This document shows, piece after piece, positions 5,690 through 61,988 of a DNA stretch of 64,000 nt; the stretch's first letter is position 1; every line of letters begins with the position of its first letter. The notes beneath the pieces were generated by a model. It made no database searches and had not been told where the DNA came from. It saw only the letters and a program-made list of their open reading frames with translations. Location: the NCBI GenBank assembly GCA_016218045.1, contig JACRFB010000059.1, positions 124,001 to 188,000 of the forward strand. Direction: 5' to 3'. Origin of the DNA: Ignavibacteriota bacterium (GTDB lineage Bacteria > Bacteroidota > Ignavibacteria > SZUA-365). Position numbers and translations under genes: made by a program.

Positions 5690-5713
5690 GGAACATGCGT
5701 CTCCTCGATACCC

Positions 5714-5857
5714 CGTCTCACGTCTGCGTCTCACGTCTGCGTCTCACGTCTGCCGTCTCACGTCTGCGTCTCACGTCTGCCGTCTCACGTCTGCCGTCTC
5801 ACGTCTGCCGTCTCACGTCTGCGTCTCACGTCTGCCGTCTCACGTCTGCGTCTCACG
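5714..5857. repeat. Tandem array of CGTCTCA / CGTCTGC units
   Basis: Alternating 6- and 7-nt pieces CGTCTCA and CGTCTGC(C) repeat for about 140 bp and stop 6 bp before the 3' end of tRNA-Arg. All copies are in one orientation. The open frames across it are products of the repeat, not genes. Confidence 0.8.
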
Positions 5858-10090: not shown

Positions 10091-11623
10091 ATGGACATCC
10101 TCTTCCTTCTCGGCGGTATTATTCTCGGCGCGGTCATCGGCTGGACCATCGCAACGCAGCGCGCGCGGCAGGGACTCGTCCCACGCGCGGAACTCGACGC
10201 GGCGGCACAAAACCTGAATCAGACCGTCACCGAACTCCGCGTGGAACAGGAACGCGGCCGCGCACTTGCCACGCAGCGGGAAGAGGCGCTGACGTCGCTC
10301 CGCGAAAAGGAGAACGCGGTGTTGGCGCTGTCGAGCGCGGCGTCGTCGCGGGAGGCCGAACTCAAGGCAGCGCGGCAGCAGGCCGAGGAAACACGCGCCG
10401 CACTCGCCGCGCTCGGCGAGTCGTTCGAAAAACTGCGTGGCGACATCGAAGAACGAAACGCGCAGCTCGCGGAATTGCGCGCACAGAAACAGGCGGCTGA
10501 CGAGAAACTCACGACGCAGAAATCGGAGATCGAGGCGATACGCCGCCAGTCGGAGGCGGAGTTTAAAAATCTCGCGACGCAGATCCTCGATGAAAAGGCG
10601 GAGAAGTTCACGGCGCTGAACAAAAGCAATATCGAGACCATTCTGAAACCGCTCGGCGACAACCTGCTCGAGTTCAAGAAGAAGGTCGAGGATGTGTACG
10701 ACAAGGAGGCCCAGCAGCGCTTCTCGCTGGGTCAGGAAGTGGAAAAACTGGTGAAGCTCAACCAGCAGATCAGTCTCGACGCAACCAATCTCACCAAGGC
10801 CCTCGAGGGGAATTCGAAAACGCAGGGCGACTGGGGCGAAATGATTCTCGAACGAATCCTCGAGCAGTCGGGCCTGGTGAAGGGACGCGAGTATGTTGTG
10901 CAGGAATTCCTCCGCGACGATGCCGGATCGGTGCTGAAAAACGAGGAAGGATCGAAGATGCAGCCCGACGTGCTGGTCTCGTACCCCGGCGACCGTAAGG
11001 TGATCATCGATTCGAAGGTGTCGCTTCTTGCATACAAACGGTACGCGGCCGCCGACTCGCGCGAGGAACAGTCCGCCGCGCTTAAACAGCATGTCGATTC
11101 CATCAAACGGCACATCGAGGGTTTGAGCAGGAAAAACTATCCGGACTTCACACAGAGTCTCGACTTTGTGATGATGTTTGTGCCCATCGAACCGGCCTTC
11201 CTCGCGGCGCTGCAGCACGATCCCGAGCTGTGGAATTACGCGTATTCGCGGCGTGTGCTGCTGATGAGTCCGACCAACCTCATCGCAGCGCTAAAGCTCG
11301 TGGCCGATCTCTGGCAGCGTGAATATCAGAACCGTAACGCCATCGAGATCGCGGAGCGGGGTGGCGCTCTCTACGACAAGTTCGCGGGTTTTGTGGACAC
11401 CCTCGCCTCAGTCGGCGAATCGATCGACAAGGCGCAGGTCCGGTACACCTCGGCGATGAACATGCTGAAGGACGGCAAAGGCAATCTGCTCACACGTGTC
11501 GAGGGACTAAAAAAACTCGGCATCAAGGCGAAGAAGGCACTGCCGTCGTCGCTACTTATATCAGCGGAAGACGAGGAGAACGCGGATGCGGACAACACCG
11601 ACGAAGAGAGCGGGGCCGCGTGA
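10091..11623 (+). CDS. rmuC: DNA recombination protein RmuC
   Basis: A 510-residue protein with an N-terminal membrane anchor (MDILFLLGGIILGAVIGWTI), a long coiled coil (about residues 35-170) and the RmuC nuclease-like core: GNSKTQGDWGEMILERILEQ, then QPDVLVSYPGDRKVIIDSKV, the PD-(D/E)xK-like DSKVS site, and FVMMFVPIEPAF. RmuC limits recombination at inverted repeats, possibly by cutting DNA structures. The tail EDEENADADNTDEESG is acidic. The stop codon is followed at once by a repeat array. Confidence 0.93.
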   Translation: MDILFLLGGIILGAVIGWTIATQRARQGLVPRAELDAAAQNLNQTVTELRVEQERGRALATQREEALTSLREKENAVLALSSAASSREAELKAARQQAEETRAALAALGESFEKLRGDIEERNAQLAELRAQKQAADEKLTTQKSEIEAIRRQSEAEFKNLATQILDEKAEKFTALNKSNIETILKPLGDNLLEFKKKVEDVYDKEAQQRFSLGQEVEKLVKLNQQISLDATNLTKALEGNSKTQGDWGEMILERILEQSGLVKGREYVVQEFLRDDAGSVLKNEEGSKMQPDVLVSYPGDRKVIIDSKVSLLAYKRYAAADSREEQSAALKQHVDSIKRHIEGLSRKNYPDFTQSLDFVMMFVPIEPAFLAALQHDPELWNYAYSRRVLLMSPTNLIAALKLVADLWQREYQNRNAIEIAERGGALYDKFAGFVDTLASVGESIDKAQVRYTSAMNMLKDGKGNLLTRVEGLKKLGIKAKKALPSSLLISAEDEENADADNTDEESGAA

Positions 11624-11900
11624 CAGCGGGAGAGCGTGACAGCGAACCTGTGTCTCGCTGAGCGGAGTCGAAGCGCGACGGAACAGCGGGACAGCGGGAG
11701 AGCGGGACAGCGAACCTGTGTCTCGCTGAGCGGAGTCGAAGCGCGACGGGACAGCGGGACAGCGGGAGAGCGGGACAGCGGGAGAGCGGGACAGCGAACC
11801 TGTGTCTCGCTGAGCGGAGTCGAAGCGCGACGGAACAGCGGGACAGCGGGACAGCGGGACAGCGGGAGAGCGGGACAGTGGGAGAGCGGGACAGCGGCCG
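11624..11900 (+). repeat. Octad array with three copies of a CTGAGCGGAGTCGAAG element
   Basis: The region alternates 8-mers GGGACAGC and GGGAGAGC with three near-identical copies of a block reading GAACCTGTGTCTCGCTGA then GCGGAGTCGAAGCGCGAC, at about 11644, 11722 and 11795. The inner CTGAGCGGAGTCGAAG piece, reverse CTTCGACTCCGCTCAG, is a motif I remember from intergenic repeats in many environmental bacteria. Open frames here are not judged to be genes. Confidence 0.8.
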
Positions 11901-12359: not shown

Positions 12360-12677
12360 TCAATTGCCTGAGGCAAAAAGCCGGAACAGGAGCAGTACTA
12401 TACTGCCTGAAACGAAGTTGAGAAGCACATTGACACCACCCCTCTTCATGAAGCCATACTCCTTGAAGCTGAGGAAATGTATGGAGTGCATCAGCATGGC
12501 GAGCAGGAGAAGATCCCGAATATCACCGGTAAATCCGGTAAAATCCGGAGAGGACCACGGGCTTGATTCCACGACAATCCACGCAAGTATGGATCCTGCC
12601 AGTACCCCGAAGAGATCGATTATTCGGCCAAGCCACTCATACGTTGCCAGCTCTGCATTCATCGCACTCTTTTCCAT
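12360..12677 (-). CDS. Small hypothetical membrane protein
   Basis: A 105-residue protein with three hydrophobic stretches (IDLFGVLAGSILAWIVVE, LLLLAMLMHSIHFLSF, VNVLLNFVSGSIVLLLFRLF). Its family is not recognised. An ATG at 12677 has a GGAG six bases upstream. It probably forms a two-gene unit with the DsrE-like gene; small membrane proteins next to DsrE genes are sometimes sulfur or thiol transporters, but nothing in this sequence shows that. Confidence 0.55.
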   Translation of the reverse strand: MEKSAMNAELATYEWLGRIIDLFGVLAGSILAWIVVESSPWSSPDFTGFTGDIRDLLLLAMLMHSIHFLSFKEYGFMKRGGVNVLLNFVSGSIVLLLFRLFASGN

Positions 12678-12762
12678 GGGTACTCCATTGTATTACCCAT
12701 AAAATATCAGGGCCCAATCGAAGCACCAAACCACCGGCACTGAATGACGATGTGTGCTTTGG

Positions 12763-13432
12763 TGTATCGTGACACCGGCAGCGGTGTATCGGGACGCGAT
12801 TGCGGTGTATCGGGACACCGGCATCGGTGTAAGGGGCCGCGATTGTGGTGTATCGGGACAATGGCAAAGGTGTACCGGGACAATGGCAACGGTGCAACGG
12901 GCCGCGATTGCGGTGTATCGGGACACCGGCAACGGTGTATCGGGCCGCGATTGCGGTGTATCGGGACAACGGCATCGGTGTAAGGGGCCGCGATTGTGGT
13001 GTATCGGGACAATGGCAAAGGTGTACCGGGACAACGGCAACGGTGTATCGGGCCTCGATTGCGGTGTACCGGGACAATGGCAAAGGTGTATCGGGACAAC
13101 GGTAACGGTGTATGGGGCCGTGCTCGCGATGTACCGGGACAACGGCAACGGTGTATGGGGCCGCGATTGCGGTGTACCGGGACAATGGCAAAGGTGTATC
13201 GGGACAACGGCAACGGTGTATGGGGCCGTGCTCGCGACGCACCGGGACAATGGCAAAGGTGTATCGGGACAACGGCAACGGTGTATGGGGCCGTGCTCGC
13301 GATGTACCGGGACAACGGCAACGGTGCAACGGGACAACGGCAACGGTGTATCGGGCCGCGATTGCGGTGTACCGGGACAATGGCAAAGGTGTATCGGGAC
13401 AACGGCAACGCTGTACCGGTCAAGCGGGATAC
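12763..13432. repeat. Array of about 31 imperfect 21-22-bp modules
   Basis: Each unit begins GTGTA(T/C)CGGG and ends in one of a few alternative tails: ACAACGGCAACG or ACAATGGCAAAG (22 bp), CCGCGATTGCG (21 bp) and CCGTGCTCGCGA(T/C). The order is mixed but some longer blocks recur. The junction CGGTGTACCG is nearly palindromic. Neither strand meets stops in several frames, which creates long artificial ORFs rich in PLSRYT or YRDNG repeats. There is no spacer variation of CRISPR type. The array lies between the divergent genes at 12677 and 13681. Confidence 0.9.
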
Positions 13433-13680: not shown

Positions 13681-16600
13681 ATGAACTCGATGGCACAAAC
13701 GGCAGCATCAGGGAACGGCCGGCGGGCGGGAAACACGTGGCCGTCCATCTCCGGCGACTTCCAGCCGATTTCCAACACGAGTGTGAGTATTGCCGGAGTG
13801 ATCGGACTCGTGATAGGTGTGGGCTGGTTGCTCGGAGAGTGGCGATACGGCACCTTCGGGCACGGGTACGTGCCGATGGCCCCGGCGACGGCGTGGCTCT
13901 TCGTCCTGCTCAGTATGTTGATGTTCCTGCGCACCCGGCTGCTGCAATCGCGACGTGCGGCACTGGTATCGATGGTGCTGCCTCTGATGGTGCTCGCGAC
14001 AGTGCTCACCAACACCGACTGGCGCGGGTCCATTGAAATTGAACGGCACTTCACGCTACGCGCGGGCGATCTCCCGGGTGTCCGTACAGGGTGGATGTCG
14101 CCACTCACCGGCGCCGCCTTCCTTCTGTGCTCGCTCGGTGTGGTCCTGAGCATGCCCTGGATAACACGGCACCGGTCGGCACGTCTGACGGCCCTGGTGA
14201 TGGGTTGCACGGTATTGAGTCTTGGCCTTGTGGTGCTCCTGAGTTACATCATGAACGCGCCATTGCTCTACGACGGGCACACAGTGCCGATGGCTGTGGG
14301 TACGGCAGTGTGCTTCGTGCTGCTTGCATTCGGGATCGTGACGGGCGCAGGCTTGGAGAAGTGGTACTGGAATTATAAGGGCCAGCGCTGGTTGTTGACC
14401 GTGTGCGTATTGTGTTGCCTGGCCATCCTGGGACGCGGGGCGTGGAGCTTCCGAACACAGAATGTACTCTATGAAAGGGAGGCGGTGAATCAACTCACCG
14501 CCATCTCGACGATCAAGGTGCATCAGATCGAACAGTGGCGAAAAGAACGGCTCGGTGACGCCGCAGTGTTGAACTCGAGTCTCCTCTTTAAGGAAGCCGC
14601 CAGGGAGTGGATGCGCAGCGGCGATGTGTCGTTGCAGGAAAAACTCCTGCAACGTATCAGCGCCATGACCGTGTATTACGGATACAACGATGTCATCCTG
14701 ACCGATACTCTTGGAAATATTCTGTTGAGTACCGGAGGATCATCCGGGGAGGTCGATGGCGAGATGCGTCACATGTGTGAACGCGCGCTGCGAGCGGGCA
14801 GGCCGCTGCTCAGCGACGTGTACCCAGGTCGCGATTCCTCGGAGACACATATCGCGGTGGTAGCTCCACTCATCGATCCGTCCTCAACGCGTTCATCGGC
14901 ATTCGGTCTGGTAATACTCCAGTCGCGGACGCTGACCTCGCTGGACACGCTGGTCCGTTTCTGGCCCGTCCTAAGCCCGACGGCGGAGGCGATGTTGGTG
15001 CAAGGGTATGCCCAGGAAGTGCACTTCCTGAACGATGTGGGGCATGGTACAGCATCGATGACGCGGCTGCGCTTCCCGTTGAGCCGCACCGAACTTCCGT
15101 CCGTTCGTGCAGTACTCGGCGCGCGGGGCATACTCACGGGCCGCGACCACCGCGGAGTCCGCGTCCTCGCGTACGTGATGGCGGTGCCCGACTCACCATG
15201 GCTGCTTGTGAGCAAGATCGGTGTCGACGAGGTATTCGCGCCACTGTGGCGCGAGGGTGCCGGTATCGGCATTACCGTGGTACTGCTCATGGCGGTGGTC
15301 TGTCTGGGTTTTGTGCTTGTGCAAAAGAGCCGGAACACGGCGCGCGACCACTATGAACGCGAGGAAAAACTCTCCGTCACGCTTCGCGCCATCGGCGACG
15401 GTGTGCTTGTGACGGATGCCGACGGTCGCATCACACGCATCAACCGCGTGACGGAAATACTCACGGGTTGGAGCGAGCAGGAAGCGCTTGGCAGACCCGT
15501 GGAGGAGGTCTTCCGCATCGTGAACGCGGAGACACGCGTCCCCGTTGTTGTTCCCGTTGCGCGCGTGCTGGTAACTGGTGAGCAGCACGGACTCTCGAAT
15601 AACACGCTGCTGATAGCGCGCGACGGTAGCGAATGCCCCATCGACGACAGCGCCGCACCAATTCACGACGCCGACGGCACCCTGATAGGCGTGATCATGG
15701 TATTTCGGGATGTGTCGGAGGAACGGCGGGCGCGGCAGGCCCTGCACTCCATCAATACGACGTTGGAACAACTGGTGCAGGCGCGCACATCCGAGTTGCG
15801 GGAAAGCGAAGAACGTTTCCGCACCCTCATCGAGGCGGCGGCGAGCGTCATCGTGGCTCTGGCCCCCGACGAAAGCATTCTGGAGTTCAACCCCGAGGCG
15901 CAGAAGGTGTTCGGACGCTCGCGCGAGGACGTTCTCGGAAAAAATTACGTGGAGACGTTTATTCCCGAAAGCGCCCGTGCGGAAGTGCGGAATGATATTC
16001 GGAAAGTGCTCACGGGTGTTCCGACACGCGGACATGAGAACCCGATCACACGGGCTGATGGAACACAGCGGATCATCTCGTGGAATGCCAGTCCCCTTCC
16101 GGATGTGCAGGGACGGTCCAGCGGCATCATTGCGGTCGGTCACGACATCACCGAGCGTGTACGTGCGGAGGCCGAACTGCTCGCCGCGAAAGAGCGTGCG
16201 GAAAGGTCCGACAAACTCAAGGACGCCTTCATTGCCAACATCTCGCACGAAGTGCGCACGCCTCTCAACAGTATACTCGGCTTCACGGAGATCCTCCGCG
16301 AACGTGTGCATCCATACCAAACTGCGGATCTCGCACGCATTTTCGACCGCATCCAGGCGGGATCGGATCGGTTGACACGCACCATCGATCTTATATTGAA
16401 CGTCTCACGCATGCAGGCGGGCGACACACTTCTGCGCGCCGCTCCGGTGGATGTATCGATCATGGTCAGCAAGGTTCTGGACGGGCTCGCGCCGCTGGCG
16501 GCCAACAAATCCATCGGCCTCGACTTCCATAACGACAGCGAGGGTACAACCATCATTCAAGCCGACGAATACCTTCTCTCACAAGCCCTGATCAATCTTG

Positions 16601-17343
16601 TCGACAACGCCATCAAATTCACCAGGCAGGGTTCGGTAACCGTACACCTGCGGCGTACGGACGGCCGCCTTTTGCTCGACGTCACGGATACGGGGGTCGG
16701 CATCTCGGAGGAATACCTGCCCCATCTCTTCAAAGCGTACTCGCAGGAGGAGACGGGCATGACCAAGACGTATCAAGGCATCGGTCTGGGCATGACTCTT
16801 GTAAAACAGTATTGCGACGTTCACGGTGTGCCGATCACAGTGCGGAGCAAAAAACACGAGGGCAGCACCTTCTCGCTCGATCTGAGCGCACTGCTGACTG
16901 CGGACGGAAGTATTTCTCCTGCCCCTCTCCACGCCGCTCCCGCGCAGTCGGCGGTGACGGGGCACAGAACAACGGAAAGACCCACGATCCTTGCGGTGGA
17001 AGACGATCAACTCACGCAGGACTTTCTCGCATCCATTCTCACAGATTCATTCGACGTGTTGTTTGCATCGTCCGCCGCCGCTGCCCTGGACCAACTGCAG
17101 ATGCATACCGTCGATCTCATCCTGATGGATCTGTCGCTGGAGGGTGACGTCAACGGACTGCTGCTCACACGGCGGCTGCGGGGCTCGGATCAGCATACAC
17201 ACATTCCGGTCATCGCCGTGACCGCGCATGCCTTCCCCGAAGATGAACGTCTGGCACTCGATGCCGGCTGCGATGCGTACATCGCCAAGCCGGTGACACG
17301 CGCGCGGCTCGTGCAGATGATTCGGAAACACCTCCCGACCTGA
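13681..17343 (+). CDS. Membrane hybrid sensor histidine kinase (7TM-sensor-PAS-PAS-HK-REC)
   Basis: The ATG at 13681 is preceded by AAAGGAG. The 1220-residue protein has about seven membrane helices in residues 30-260, a periplasmic sensor region (about 265-525), another helix (about 529-549), two PAS domains (about 569-680 and 709-824), a DHp domain with the H-box SHEVRTPLN (His856), an ATP-binding domain (N-box DNAIKFT, DTGVGIS, GIGLGM) and a C-terminal receiver with phospho-acceptor Asp1150 (LILMDLSLEG) and Lys in IAKPVT. The first PAS stretch LRAIGDGVLVTDADGRI is typical. The transmitter and receiver are unusually close to those of the gene at 18217-20295. Signal unknown. Confidence 0.92.
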   Translation: MNSMAQTAASGNGRRAGNTWPSISGDFQPISNTSVSIAGVIGLVIGVGWLLGEWRYGTFGHGYVPMAPATAWLFVLLSMLMFLRTRLLQSRRAALVSMVLPLMVLATVLTNTDWRGSIEIERHFTLRAGDLPGVRTGWMSPLTGAAFLLCSLGVVLSMPWITRHRSARLTALVMGCTVLSLGLVVLLSYIMNAPLLYDGHTVPMAVGTAVCFVLLAFGIVTGAGLEKWYWNYKGQRWLLTVCVLCCLAILGRGAWSFRTQNVLYEREAVNQLTAISTIKVHQIEQWRKERLGDAAVLNSSLLFKEAAREWMRSGDVSLQEKLLQRISAMTVYYGYNDVILTDTLGNILLSTGGSSGEVDGEMRHMCERALRAGRPLLSDVYPGRDSSETHIAVVAPLIDPSSTRSSAFGLVILQSRTLTSLDTLVRFWPVLSPTAEAMLVQGYAQEVHFLNDVGHGTASMTRLRFPLSRTELPSVRAVLGARGILTGRDHRGVRVLAYVMAVPDSPWLLVSKIGVDEVFAPLWREGAGIGITVVLLMAVVCLGFVLVQKSRNTARDHYEREEKLSVTLRAIGDGVLVTDADGRITRINRVTEILTGWSEQEALGRPVEEVFRIVNAETRVPVVVPVARVLVTGEQHGLSNNTLLIARDGSECPIDDSAAPIHDADGTLIGVIMVFRDVSEERRARQALHSINTTLEQLVQARTSELRESEERFRTLIEAAASVIVALAPDESILEFNPEAQKVFGRSREDVLGKNYVETFIPESARAEVRNDIRKVLTGVPTRGHENPITRADGTQRIISWNASPLPDVQGRSSGIIAVGHDITERVRAEAELLAAKERAERSDKLKDAFIANISHEVRTPLNSILGFTEILRERVHPYQTADLARIFDRIQAGSDRLTRTIDLILNVSRMQAGDTLLRAAPVDVSIMVSKVLDGLAPLAANKSIGLDFHNDSEGTTIIQADEYLLSQALINLVDNAIKFTRQGSVTVHLRRTDGRLLLDVTDTGVGISEEYLPHLFKAYSQEETGMTKTYQGIGLGMTLVKQYCDVHGVPITVRSKKHEGSTFSLDLSALLTADGSISPAPLHAAPAQSAVTGHRTTERPTILAVEDDQLTQDFLASILTDSFDVLFASSAAAALDQLQMHTVDLILMDLSLEGDVNGLLLTRRLRGSDQHTHIPVIAVTAHAFPEDERLALDAGCDAYIAKPVTRARLVQMIRKHLPT

Positions 17344-36139: not shown

Positions 36140-37048
36140 ATGTTCAACGGAGGATACACATACCGCGATCGCATTTCGCGCGCATGGCAAGGGAAACCTG
36201 CGCTGCAGTATTACATGACGCATCACGGACACCTCGACGAGGAGCAGTGGATACTTCGCTTCACAGGCGGTTTCATCACCTGCAACGGACAGACGATACG
36301 CGCCACTGATCCATTGCGCGCGGGCATGCTGCTGGAATATCATCGTGCGCCCTGGATCGAACCGGAGGTGCCGGACGAACTGCCCGTTCTATACAGTGAT
36401 GACGACGTACTGGTCTTCGACAAGCCCGACCGTTTGCCCGTGCTGCCCGGTGGTCTGTATCTCGAGAACACCCTGGTACTGCGGGCGCGGCGTCTGTACG
36501 GCGACGCAGTGATCCCCGCGCACCGCCTGGGGCGCGGCACAACGGGCGCCATTCTCTGCACACGCACCACGCGCGCGGCCACGGCCTTTCACGCGATGAT
36601 GCGCGGAGGCCGCATAGCGAAAACGTACCTGGCCCTCGTGCAGGGACTGCCGCAGCGGGACTCCTTCACCATCACCACACCTATCGGACGCGTCGAACAT
36701 GCGCGGCTTGGAAGCATTCACGATGTGACGCCATCGGGCAAACACGCCGTGAGTGTATGCGAGGTGCTCGCGCGGGACGAGTCCGCCTCCACCTCCCTGC
36801 TCCGTGTTACAATTCCGACCGGACGCACGCATCAGATCCGCATACATCTCGCATCGATCGATCATCCGCTTGTCGGAGACCGTTTCTACCGCGGTCCCGC
36901 GGCCGCACCCGATCCCGCGCCTGTTAATCCGGGGGATCCCGGGTATCTCCTCCATTCGTGGAGACTGGAGTATATCGATCCCTTCTCAGGTGAAACGCGG
37001 GTTGTTGTGGCGCCGGCACCAGCGTGGGCTGGGATGGGTAGATGGTAG
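36140..37048 (+). CDS. RluA-like RNA pseudouridine synthase, HRLGRGT subfamily
   Basis: The ATG at 36140 (MFNGGYTYRDRISRAWQGKP) matches the N-terminus I recall for a mostly cyanobacterial subfamily; a GTG at 36122 is the alternative. An S4-like segment is followed by the RluA core: VLVFDKPDRLPVLPGG, PAHRLGRGTTGAILCTR, KTYLALVQG and IPTGRTHQIRIHLASIDHPL. In typical RluA enzymes the catalytic Asp sits in HRLDxxTSG; here it is Gly. The subfamily appears to share this change, so activity is uncertain. The last codons Gly-Arg-Trp and the stop come from a heptad repeat. Confidence 0.85.
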   Translation: MFNGGYTYRDRISRAWQGKPALQYYMTHHGHLDEEQWILRFTGGFITCNGQTIRATDPLRAGMLLEYHRAPWIEPEVPDELPVLYSDDDVLVFDKPDRLPVLPGGLYLENTLVLRARRLYGDAVIPAHRLGRGTTGAILCTRTTRAATAFHAMMRGGRIAKTYLALVQGLPQRDSFTITTPIGRVEHARLGSIHDVTPSGKHAVSVCEVLARDESASTSLLRVTIPTGRTHQIRIHLASIDHPLVGDRFYRGPAAAPDPAPVNPGDPGYLLHSWRLEYIDPFSGETRVVVAPAPAWAGMGRW

Positions 37049-37295
37049 TTAGTAGTTAGTAGTTGGTAGTTGGGTAGTTCGATCTACGAAGGCCGTGTGA
37101 GGATACAGGAGGAAGGAGTCAGGAGACATGCACCATTTCAACTCGTGTCTCCTGTATCCTGTATCCTCACGCTCGTGTGAGGACACAGGAGGAAGGAGTC
37201 AGGAGACATGCACGATTCCAACCCGTGTCTCCTGTATCCTGTATCCTGTATCCTCACGCTCGTGTGAGGATACAGGAGGAAGGAGTCAGGAGAAA
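37037..37295 (+). repeat. Composite heptad array, TAGTTGG then repeated GGAGACA hairpins
   Basis: It begins inside the last codons of the preceding gene with TAGTTAG/TAGTTGG heptads, then TTCGATCTACGAAGG. From 37101 there are hairpin units: four heptads of GGAnnnA type, a 17-nt loop (TGCACCATTTCAACTCG or close), three or four TGTnTCC heptads and a 14-nt linker TCACGCTCGTGTGA. Units are 80 bp (37101-37180) and 87 bp (37181-37267), followed by a half unit. This fills the gap to the gene at 37349. Confidence 0.88.
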
Positions 37296-53954: not shown

Positions 53955-54251
53955 GAGTAGTAAGTAGTTGGTAGATAGTAGATCGGTCTACTCTGTCCGC
54001 GTCAGGAGACAGGATACAGGAGGAAGGAGACACAGATTGTTTCAATGCCTGTCTCCTGTCTCCATTCTCCTGTATCCTCACACGAGCATAAGGAGACAGG
54101 ATACAGGAGGCAGGAGACACGAATTGTGTCGATGCCTGTCTCCTGTCTCCTTTTTCCTGTATCCTCACACGAGCGTAAGGAGACAGGATACAGGAGGAAG
54201 GAGACACGAATTGTGTCGATGCCTGTCTCCTGTATCCTCACACGAGCATAA
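53955..54251 (+). repeat. Heptad hairpin array with 87-bp units
   Basis: TAGTAAG/TAGTTGG/TAGATAG heptads and TAGATCGGTCTAC come first. From 54005 there are two complete units of exactly 87 bp (54005-54091 and 54092-54178): heptads GGAGACA, GGATACA, GGAGGAA (or GGAGGCA) and GGAGACA, a 17-nt loop, four complementary heptads, and linker TCACACGAGC(A/G)TAA. A third, shorter unit ends at 54251. Loops differ (CAGATTGTTTCAATGCC and CGAATTGTGTCGATGCC) while stems are kept. Confidence 0.93.
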
Positions 54252-55364: not shown

Positions 55365-55790
55365 TTAGTAGATAGTAGATCGGTCTACTGTGCCCCAGTG
55401 AGGAGACAGGAGACAGGAGACAGGAGACACGGATTGTTTCGATGCCTGTCTCCTGTCTCCTTCCTCCTGTATCCTCACACGAGCGTAAGGAGACAGAATA
55501 CAGGAGGAAGGAGGCCATCGAGTCAAGGCCTGTCTCCTGTCTCCTTCCTCCTGTGTCCTCACGGGAGTGTGAGGACCGCAGGGAGTTTTGGTGGCGCTGA
55601 ATGCAACCGGGTCGGTTACACAACTCCCCCTTCCCCCTCTTAAAAAGAGGGGGTTGTCCGATAATATTTTCAAACACGCGACTCCTGTCTCCTTCCTCCT
55701 GTATCCTCACACTCCTTGAATAGATCGATCTACCCATCTACCAACTACCATCTACCACCTACCACTTACCATCTACCAACCACCCTCGCC
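55345..55790 (+). repeat. Nested heptad array, outer TAGTTGG and inner GGAGACA families
   Basis: The array overlaps the end of the preceding gene. TAGTTGG-type heptads and TAGATCGGTCTAC start it; hairpin units of GGAGACA type with 17-nt and shorter loops follow to about 55580; an unrelated segment with a G/C hairpin lies at 55580-55670; then TGTCTCC-type heptads, TAGATCGATCTAC and CTACCAT/CTACCAC heptads close it. The outer and inner heptads are thus both arranged as opposite-strand pairs. Confidence 0.88.
55633..55653. terminator. Strong hairpin, CCCCCTCTT-AAA-AAGAGGGGG
   Basis: Nine-bp perfect arms with a 3-nt loop, within flanking AACTCCC...GGTTG sequence. It could terminate transcription in either direction. 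It sits in the middle of the nested heptad array. Confidence 0.5.
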
Positions 55791-61774: not shown

Positions 61775-61988
61775 GAGAAGCTAGAATTCAGAAGCTAGAA
61801 TTCAGAATTCAGAATCCAGAATCCAGAATCCAGAATTCAGAATATCTACGATCAACGAGCATCGTGGGGATGGTACGTGTGCCGGGCGGAACAATCGTTA
61901 GACGGGCGTTACCGCAATGCGAATCACACTGCATTCTCGAATGTGATATTCTGGATTCTGAATTCTGGATTCTGGATTCTAGCTTCTT
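61775..61988 (+). repeat. Heptad hairpin, AGAATTC/AGAATCC family, around an 80-bp core
   Basis: About ten copies (AGAAGCT, AGAATTC, AGAATCC) start within two bases of the radical SAM stop codon. An ordinary-looking core of about 95 bp follows, then seven reverse-complementary copies (GGATTCT, GAATTCT, AGCTTCT). The outer pairs could form a stem of about 45 bp with a large loop. Confidence 0.88.

Follow-up and report, generated by a model that had tools for sequence, protein, structure and literature searches.

Prokaryotic families of non-coding satellites dispersed over one genome have been described in Leptospira interrogans and Methanocella conradii, and were called rare (PMC6749651). In Porphyromonas gingivalis, the BrickBuilt element is a 23-nt minisatellite within a MITE, found in arrays of 1 to 23 copies at many loci in one genome (PMC4596501). 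The array reported here lies in a 64,000-nucleotide stretch of an Ignavibacteriota genome (the window) and was compared with these systems by its unit structure, its sister arrays and its genomic setting.

The array, its sister arrays and their surroundings

By unit segmentation and TRF, the intact array occupied positions 12761..13409 (+ strand) and consisted of 30 head-to-tail units of 21-22 bp, with the caveat that array lengths may be collapsed in this assembly of 72 contigs. Nineteen units were 22 bp long (consensus GGTGTAYCGGGACAAYGGCAAM) and 11 were 21 bp long (consensus GGTGTATSGGGCCGCGATTGC); a degenerate 31st unit, GCTGTACCGGTCAAGCGGGATA, followed at 13410..13431 (+). The original prediction of a mosaic of about 31 modules agreed with this count of 30 full units and one decayed unit, and the GTGTAYCGGG that it described as shared was exact in 18 units. 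The 22-bp type ended in ACAAYGGCAAM and the 21-bp type in CCGCGATTGC or, in three units, CCGTGCTCGC; together with variants, these made up the small set of tails that had been claimed. Autocorrelation of the array peaked at 22 and 43, and the 7-bp unit of cyanobacterial-type heptamer repeats was absent, as neither period 7 nor period 8 dominated. TRF returned nested periods of 43, 65, 108 and 173 bp (2, 3, 5 and 8 units) with scores of 352-683, which places the array far beyond chance. It was the longest tandem array in the 848 kb sampled, where 100 TRF loci (about 118 per Mb), mostly of 7-8 bp or codon multiples, were counted.

The window array (contig C59) was one of at least five related arrays of 20-30 units each. 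Five is a lower bound, because the first-look genome filter scored 150 of about 1,300 candidates; 1.0 Mb was fully searched and held no others. The sister arrays, each of ~20-25 units, were located at about 5,700-6,215 of contig C19, about 22,697-23,153 of C26, about 40,342-40,818 of C29 and about 153,742-154,307 of C45, and identity between arrays was about 55-60%. To avoid circularity, an HMM was trained on the window-array units alone. Its only matches in 1.0 Mb of genome were the other four arrays (E between 7e-8 and 2e-4); among the controls, reversed sequence gave one borderline match (E 0.097) and 0.8 Mb from two relatives gave no match. The pattern GGTGT-N16/17-GGTGT-N16/17-GGTGT likewise occurred at five genome loci (36 matches vs 1 in the reversed control), and the 11-mer GGTGTAYCGGG clustered on C19 and C26 at a spacing of one unit length or 87 bp. 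A family model built from the five arrays had 71 genome matches, all inside these arrays, and isolated weak matches alone in 40 relatives. With five loci, this genome has the three or more related tandem arrays that mark a dispersed non-coding minisatellite family. The window array had no match among plasmids, phages and viral contigs. One exact 20-mer match to it was seen, in a Planctomycetota MAG.

All five arrays were intergenic, two between divergent, two between tandem and one between convergent genes. The window array was 84 bp from the start of the flanking gene on one side and about 270 bp on the other. On the left, a gene for a 105-aa predicted membrane protein without a Pfam match (12360..12677, -) had no homologue among 60 relatives, and overlapped by 4 bp a downstream DsrE/DsrF-like gene (Pfam PF02635; 11971..12363, -). 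On the right, a hybrid membrane histidine kinase (13681..17343, +; Cache-like, PAS, HisKA, HATPase_c and receiver domains, Pfam) had AAAGGAG immediately upstream of its ATG at 13681 and distant homologues alone among relatives. The setting first described, a divergent gap upstream of a large membrane kinase, was thus confirmed. The sister arrays lay between DUF3224 and DUF1801 genes (tandem), DinB and outer-membrane genes (tandem), an AAA/RloB operon and a further gene (divergent), and a DsbD-like gene and a gene for a T9SS-tail protein (convergent). Across the five arrays there was neither a constant neighbour nor a promoter bias. The AAA_21 ATPase and RloB-like gene pair beside one sister array (L093:7107-9091) is a possible abortive-infection type system.

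Block duplication and a probable dispersed minisatellite

The unit types followed one another along the array in the order ABABAABABABAABAACABAACAACAABAA. Exact blocks of 50-65 bp were repeated at distances of 65, 151, 173 and 195 bp in an exact-repeat scan. A 65-bp block at 12819..12883 (+) recurred 151 bp downstream at 12970-13034, a trace of block duplication, and a 62-bp block at 13176..13237 (+) had its exact copy 65 bp downstream at 13241-13302. The earlier description of a combinatorial text with a small alphabet stands, and its irregular order is what results when a few unit types are duplicated in blocks (higher-order duplication).

Unit identity was higher within than between arrays (0.67 vs 0.58 for 22-bp against 22-bp units, 0.85 vs 0.66 for 21-bp against 21-bp units), as would be seen under concerted evolution. 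The 21-bp units from different arrays were nevertheless more alike than label permutation predicts (P = 0.012). An A at position 2 or 3 was present in 17/28 units that followed 21-bp units vs 2/87 that followed 22-bp units, a contrast inflated by block duplication since the units are not independent. Both observations suggest that the unit types are probably older than the separation of the arrays. A tetrameric register shared by C26 and C45 in their 87-bp repeats found no support (0.632 in register vs 0.651 shifted).

The arrays are best read as a lineage-restricted, non-coding, dispersed intergenic minisatellite that evolves by block duplication (probability about 0.68). Under this reading, an ancestral module of 21-22 bp, composed of an imperfect 16-bp dyad (about GGTGTTCCGGGACACC) and a 5-6-bp linker, would have multiplied at unrelated intergenic sites to give arrays of 20-30 units, at least five in number. 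Duplication of 2-, 3-, 5- or 8-unit blocks, presumably by replication slippage or unequal recombination, would have lengthened and partly homogenised the arrays and left the mosaic order of few unit types. A seed array would have dispersed between sites. For the host, the window array would then act mainly as a spacer of variable length separating its two flanking genes, and the spacer of the original prediction is compatible with this. The likeness of the 21-bp units across arrays and the bias in their successor units amount to a degree of order beyond what a simple satellite requires, though descent of all arrays from a multi-unit seed would account for it. Retention of the dyad and of the left half-unit (GGTGT, G9) in all five arrays also counts against the minisatellite reading, as it could mean selection. 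With their discrete unit types and higher-order duplications, the five arrays would give a small, tractable bacterial example of how a satellite arises, is amplified in blocks and spreads.

The intra-unit dyad and alternative explanations

The palindrome CGGTGTACCG, originally placed at every junction, was exact at 3 junctions and found at 14 with <=1 mismatch, and the majority of its 31 copies genome-wide lay outside the array. In a dyad-axis scan of the five arrays, its junction axis was paired at background level (0.257), whereas an axis within the unit, covering unit positions 1-16 with GGTGTnnC on one side and GnnACACC on the other, was paired at 0.513. With its centre between positions 8 and 9 of the unit, this axis was 47-56% paired in every one of the five arrays. 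Any other axis in any array was <=43% paired, bar axis 39 (the same dyad one unit on), which reached 46%; column permutation gave P ~0.001 before correction for axis choice. The imperfect dyad is exemplified by GGTGTATCGTGACACC in unit 1 (12761..12776, +; dyad scan, column permutation), with the axis repeated in each unit. Across the units of the five arrays, G9 was invariant and GGTGT and C13 were nearly invariant. Pairing was no higher than column composition predicts, hence covariation in the dyad was absent from the five arrays, and the dyad was broken in many units of the window array (G2:C15 and the centre). The dyad may reflect ancestry or a DNA-level constraint.

Alternatively, the arrays may be tandem sites for a dimeric DNA-binding protein that acts in nucleoid organisation, partition or silencing. 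Each unit would then be an imperfect operator of 16 bp, and a period of 21-22 bp would place neighbouring sites on nearly the same helix face. The paired axis common to all five arrays, the near-invariant positions and a period close to two helical turns argue for such sites, and the arrays, if the dyad were a binding site, would be site clusters of a new class on the chromosome. However, many units of the window array break the dyad, covariation is absent, there is no fixed promoter relation (one site lies between convergent genes) and no candidate protein was found; since all arrays are homologous, their common dyad may simply be ancestry. We consider this explanation, the main rival of the minisatellite reading, unlikely. 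The binding-site array of the original prediction is conceivable in that an imperfect dyad recurs in all five arrays, but the axis is not the one named, and neither covariation nor promoter bias accompanies it. Quite doubtful is the more specific proposal that the five arrays are chromosome-wide operator tracts of about 0.45-0.65 kb, with 20-30 imperfect dyads at a two-turn period, for one lineage-specific dimeric architectural protein, the 21/22-bp units setting the helical phase. A role confined to the kinase/105-aa gene pair, as a promoter spacer or operator tract, would suit an array that fills the divergent gap at the distances given above; yet the sister arrays adjoin unrelated genes, one in a convergent gap, and the spread over divergent, tandem and convergent gaps lends a promoter role of the window array no special support. 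No promoter-like pair above chance was found in the gap, the neighbouring locus is not conserved in relatives, and such regulation is very unlikely.

The arrays also lack the signals of coding sequence, structured RNA and mobile elements. The original prediction had pointed to several frames without a stop codon and to a possible translated product. Four of the six frames were indeed open, with long frames on both strands, and a sub-threshold match to a Pfam antifreeze repeat (25.0 bits vs a cut-off of 30) would also fit a Pro/Arg- or Asn/Gly-rich repeat protein. Open frames are nevertheless common by chance for such units, about 40% of base-shuffled-unit arrays having three or six. Codon log-odds were below zero in each of the six array frames, whereas neighbouring real genes scored positive in their own frame, and the mixed 21/22-bp units break the frame. 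In sister arrays C19 and C29 each of the six frames was interrupted by stops, and in C26 and C45 the variable sites of the 87-bp repeats had no third-position bias. The intergenic positions, the codon scores and the codon-position test agree that the arrays are not part of a coding sequence, and the chance of a translated product is close to nil. Rfam had no match to the array, its RNA folding was not significant (z -1.9 and +0.6) and compensatory stem changes were absent, pairing being as expected from the columns. These RNA results count against a CRISPR/TIGR-like guide-RNA array, as do tails that are few and recurring rather than unique spacers (13 tail sequences over 30 units, mostly recurring). 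Like a MITE-like or REP/BIME-like mobile element, such an array could be dispersed and intergenic with a dyad in its unit, and the genome does have RAYT-family (Y1 transposase) genes; but the four PF01797 matches over the cut-off were all on contigs other than those of the five arrays. The common leader and tail with terminal inverted repeats of BrickBuilt or another MITE were absent from the 400-bp flanks of the five arrays, the sole flank similarity being a 22-bp match (E 0.003) between the left of C26 and the right of C45, at about 200 bp outside either array. Mobile-element and guide-array explanations are both highly improbable.

Other repeats and comparison with described families

Other dispersed repeats were seen in the same genome. 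Arrays of the octamer CGGGACAG occurred at 11609-11897 of the window, where they were interleaved with a CTGAGCGGAGTCGAAGC-type element, and at L038:1-136, L046:4880-5005 and L049:3212-3380; the octamer near the array has CGGGACA in common with the 22-bp module. Many degenerate heptamer arrays (CGTCTCA, GGTAGTT, AGGAGAC, ATCTACC and AGAATCC) were found in the window at 5713-5857, 37037-37293, 54004-54237, 55728-55778 and 61776-61980. In a genome of the same family but another genus (G006), dispersed 19-22-bp arrays combined AGGTGTT with a perfect stem-loop (L182:1936-2001, L189:13587-13675, L191:9004-9092 and L195:3404-3517). Their stems varied by locus (TGGCCC/GGGCCA, TCGCC/GGCGA, TGCGC/GCGCA), with changes that look compensatory, and a hairpin followed AGGTGTT at 20/82 sites vs 1/174 for four control heptamers; the present family may have a distant counterpart in these arrays. 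Intergenic 22-bp arrays with GGTGT but of different sequence were found elsewhere in the class, at G031 L136:1380-1720 (GGTGTCCGGCACTTGATGCGAC) and G154 L141:1500-1950 (GGTGTCTGCGGTATCTGCGTGA).

In the alpha-satellite-type higher-order repeats of eukaryotes, few monomer types make up multi-unit blocks, and it is whole blocks that are duplicated. The present arrays have tens, not thousands, of units and no centromeric role shown, but are similar in having few unit types in duplicated multi-unit blocks. The heptamer and octamer repeats of the same genome are also intergenic and differ in period. With the families of Leptospira and Methanocella the arrays share related non-coding copies at several loci and a unit that is not a multiple of 3, whereas the long-repeat families tabulated there have units >30 nt, compared with 21-22 bp and strong between-array divergence here (PMC6749651). 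BrickBuilt has 23-nt units, and most of its elements have a homologous leader and tail with inverted ends (PMC4596501); the present arrays differ in their mixed 21/22-bp units, discrete unit types, higher-order repeats and lack of common flanks. BrickBuilt is nevertheless the closest analogue described; both consist of dispersed intergenic arrays of imperfect, about-22-bp units in which the second half-unit is the more variable (PMC4596501).
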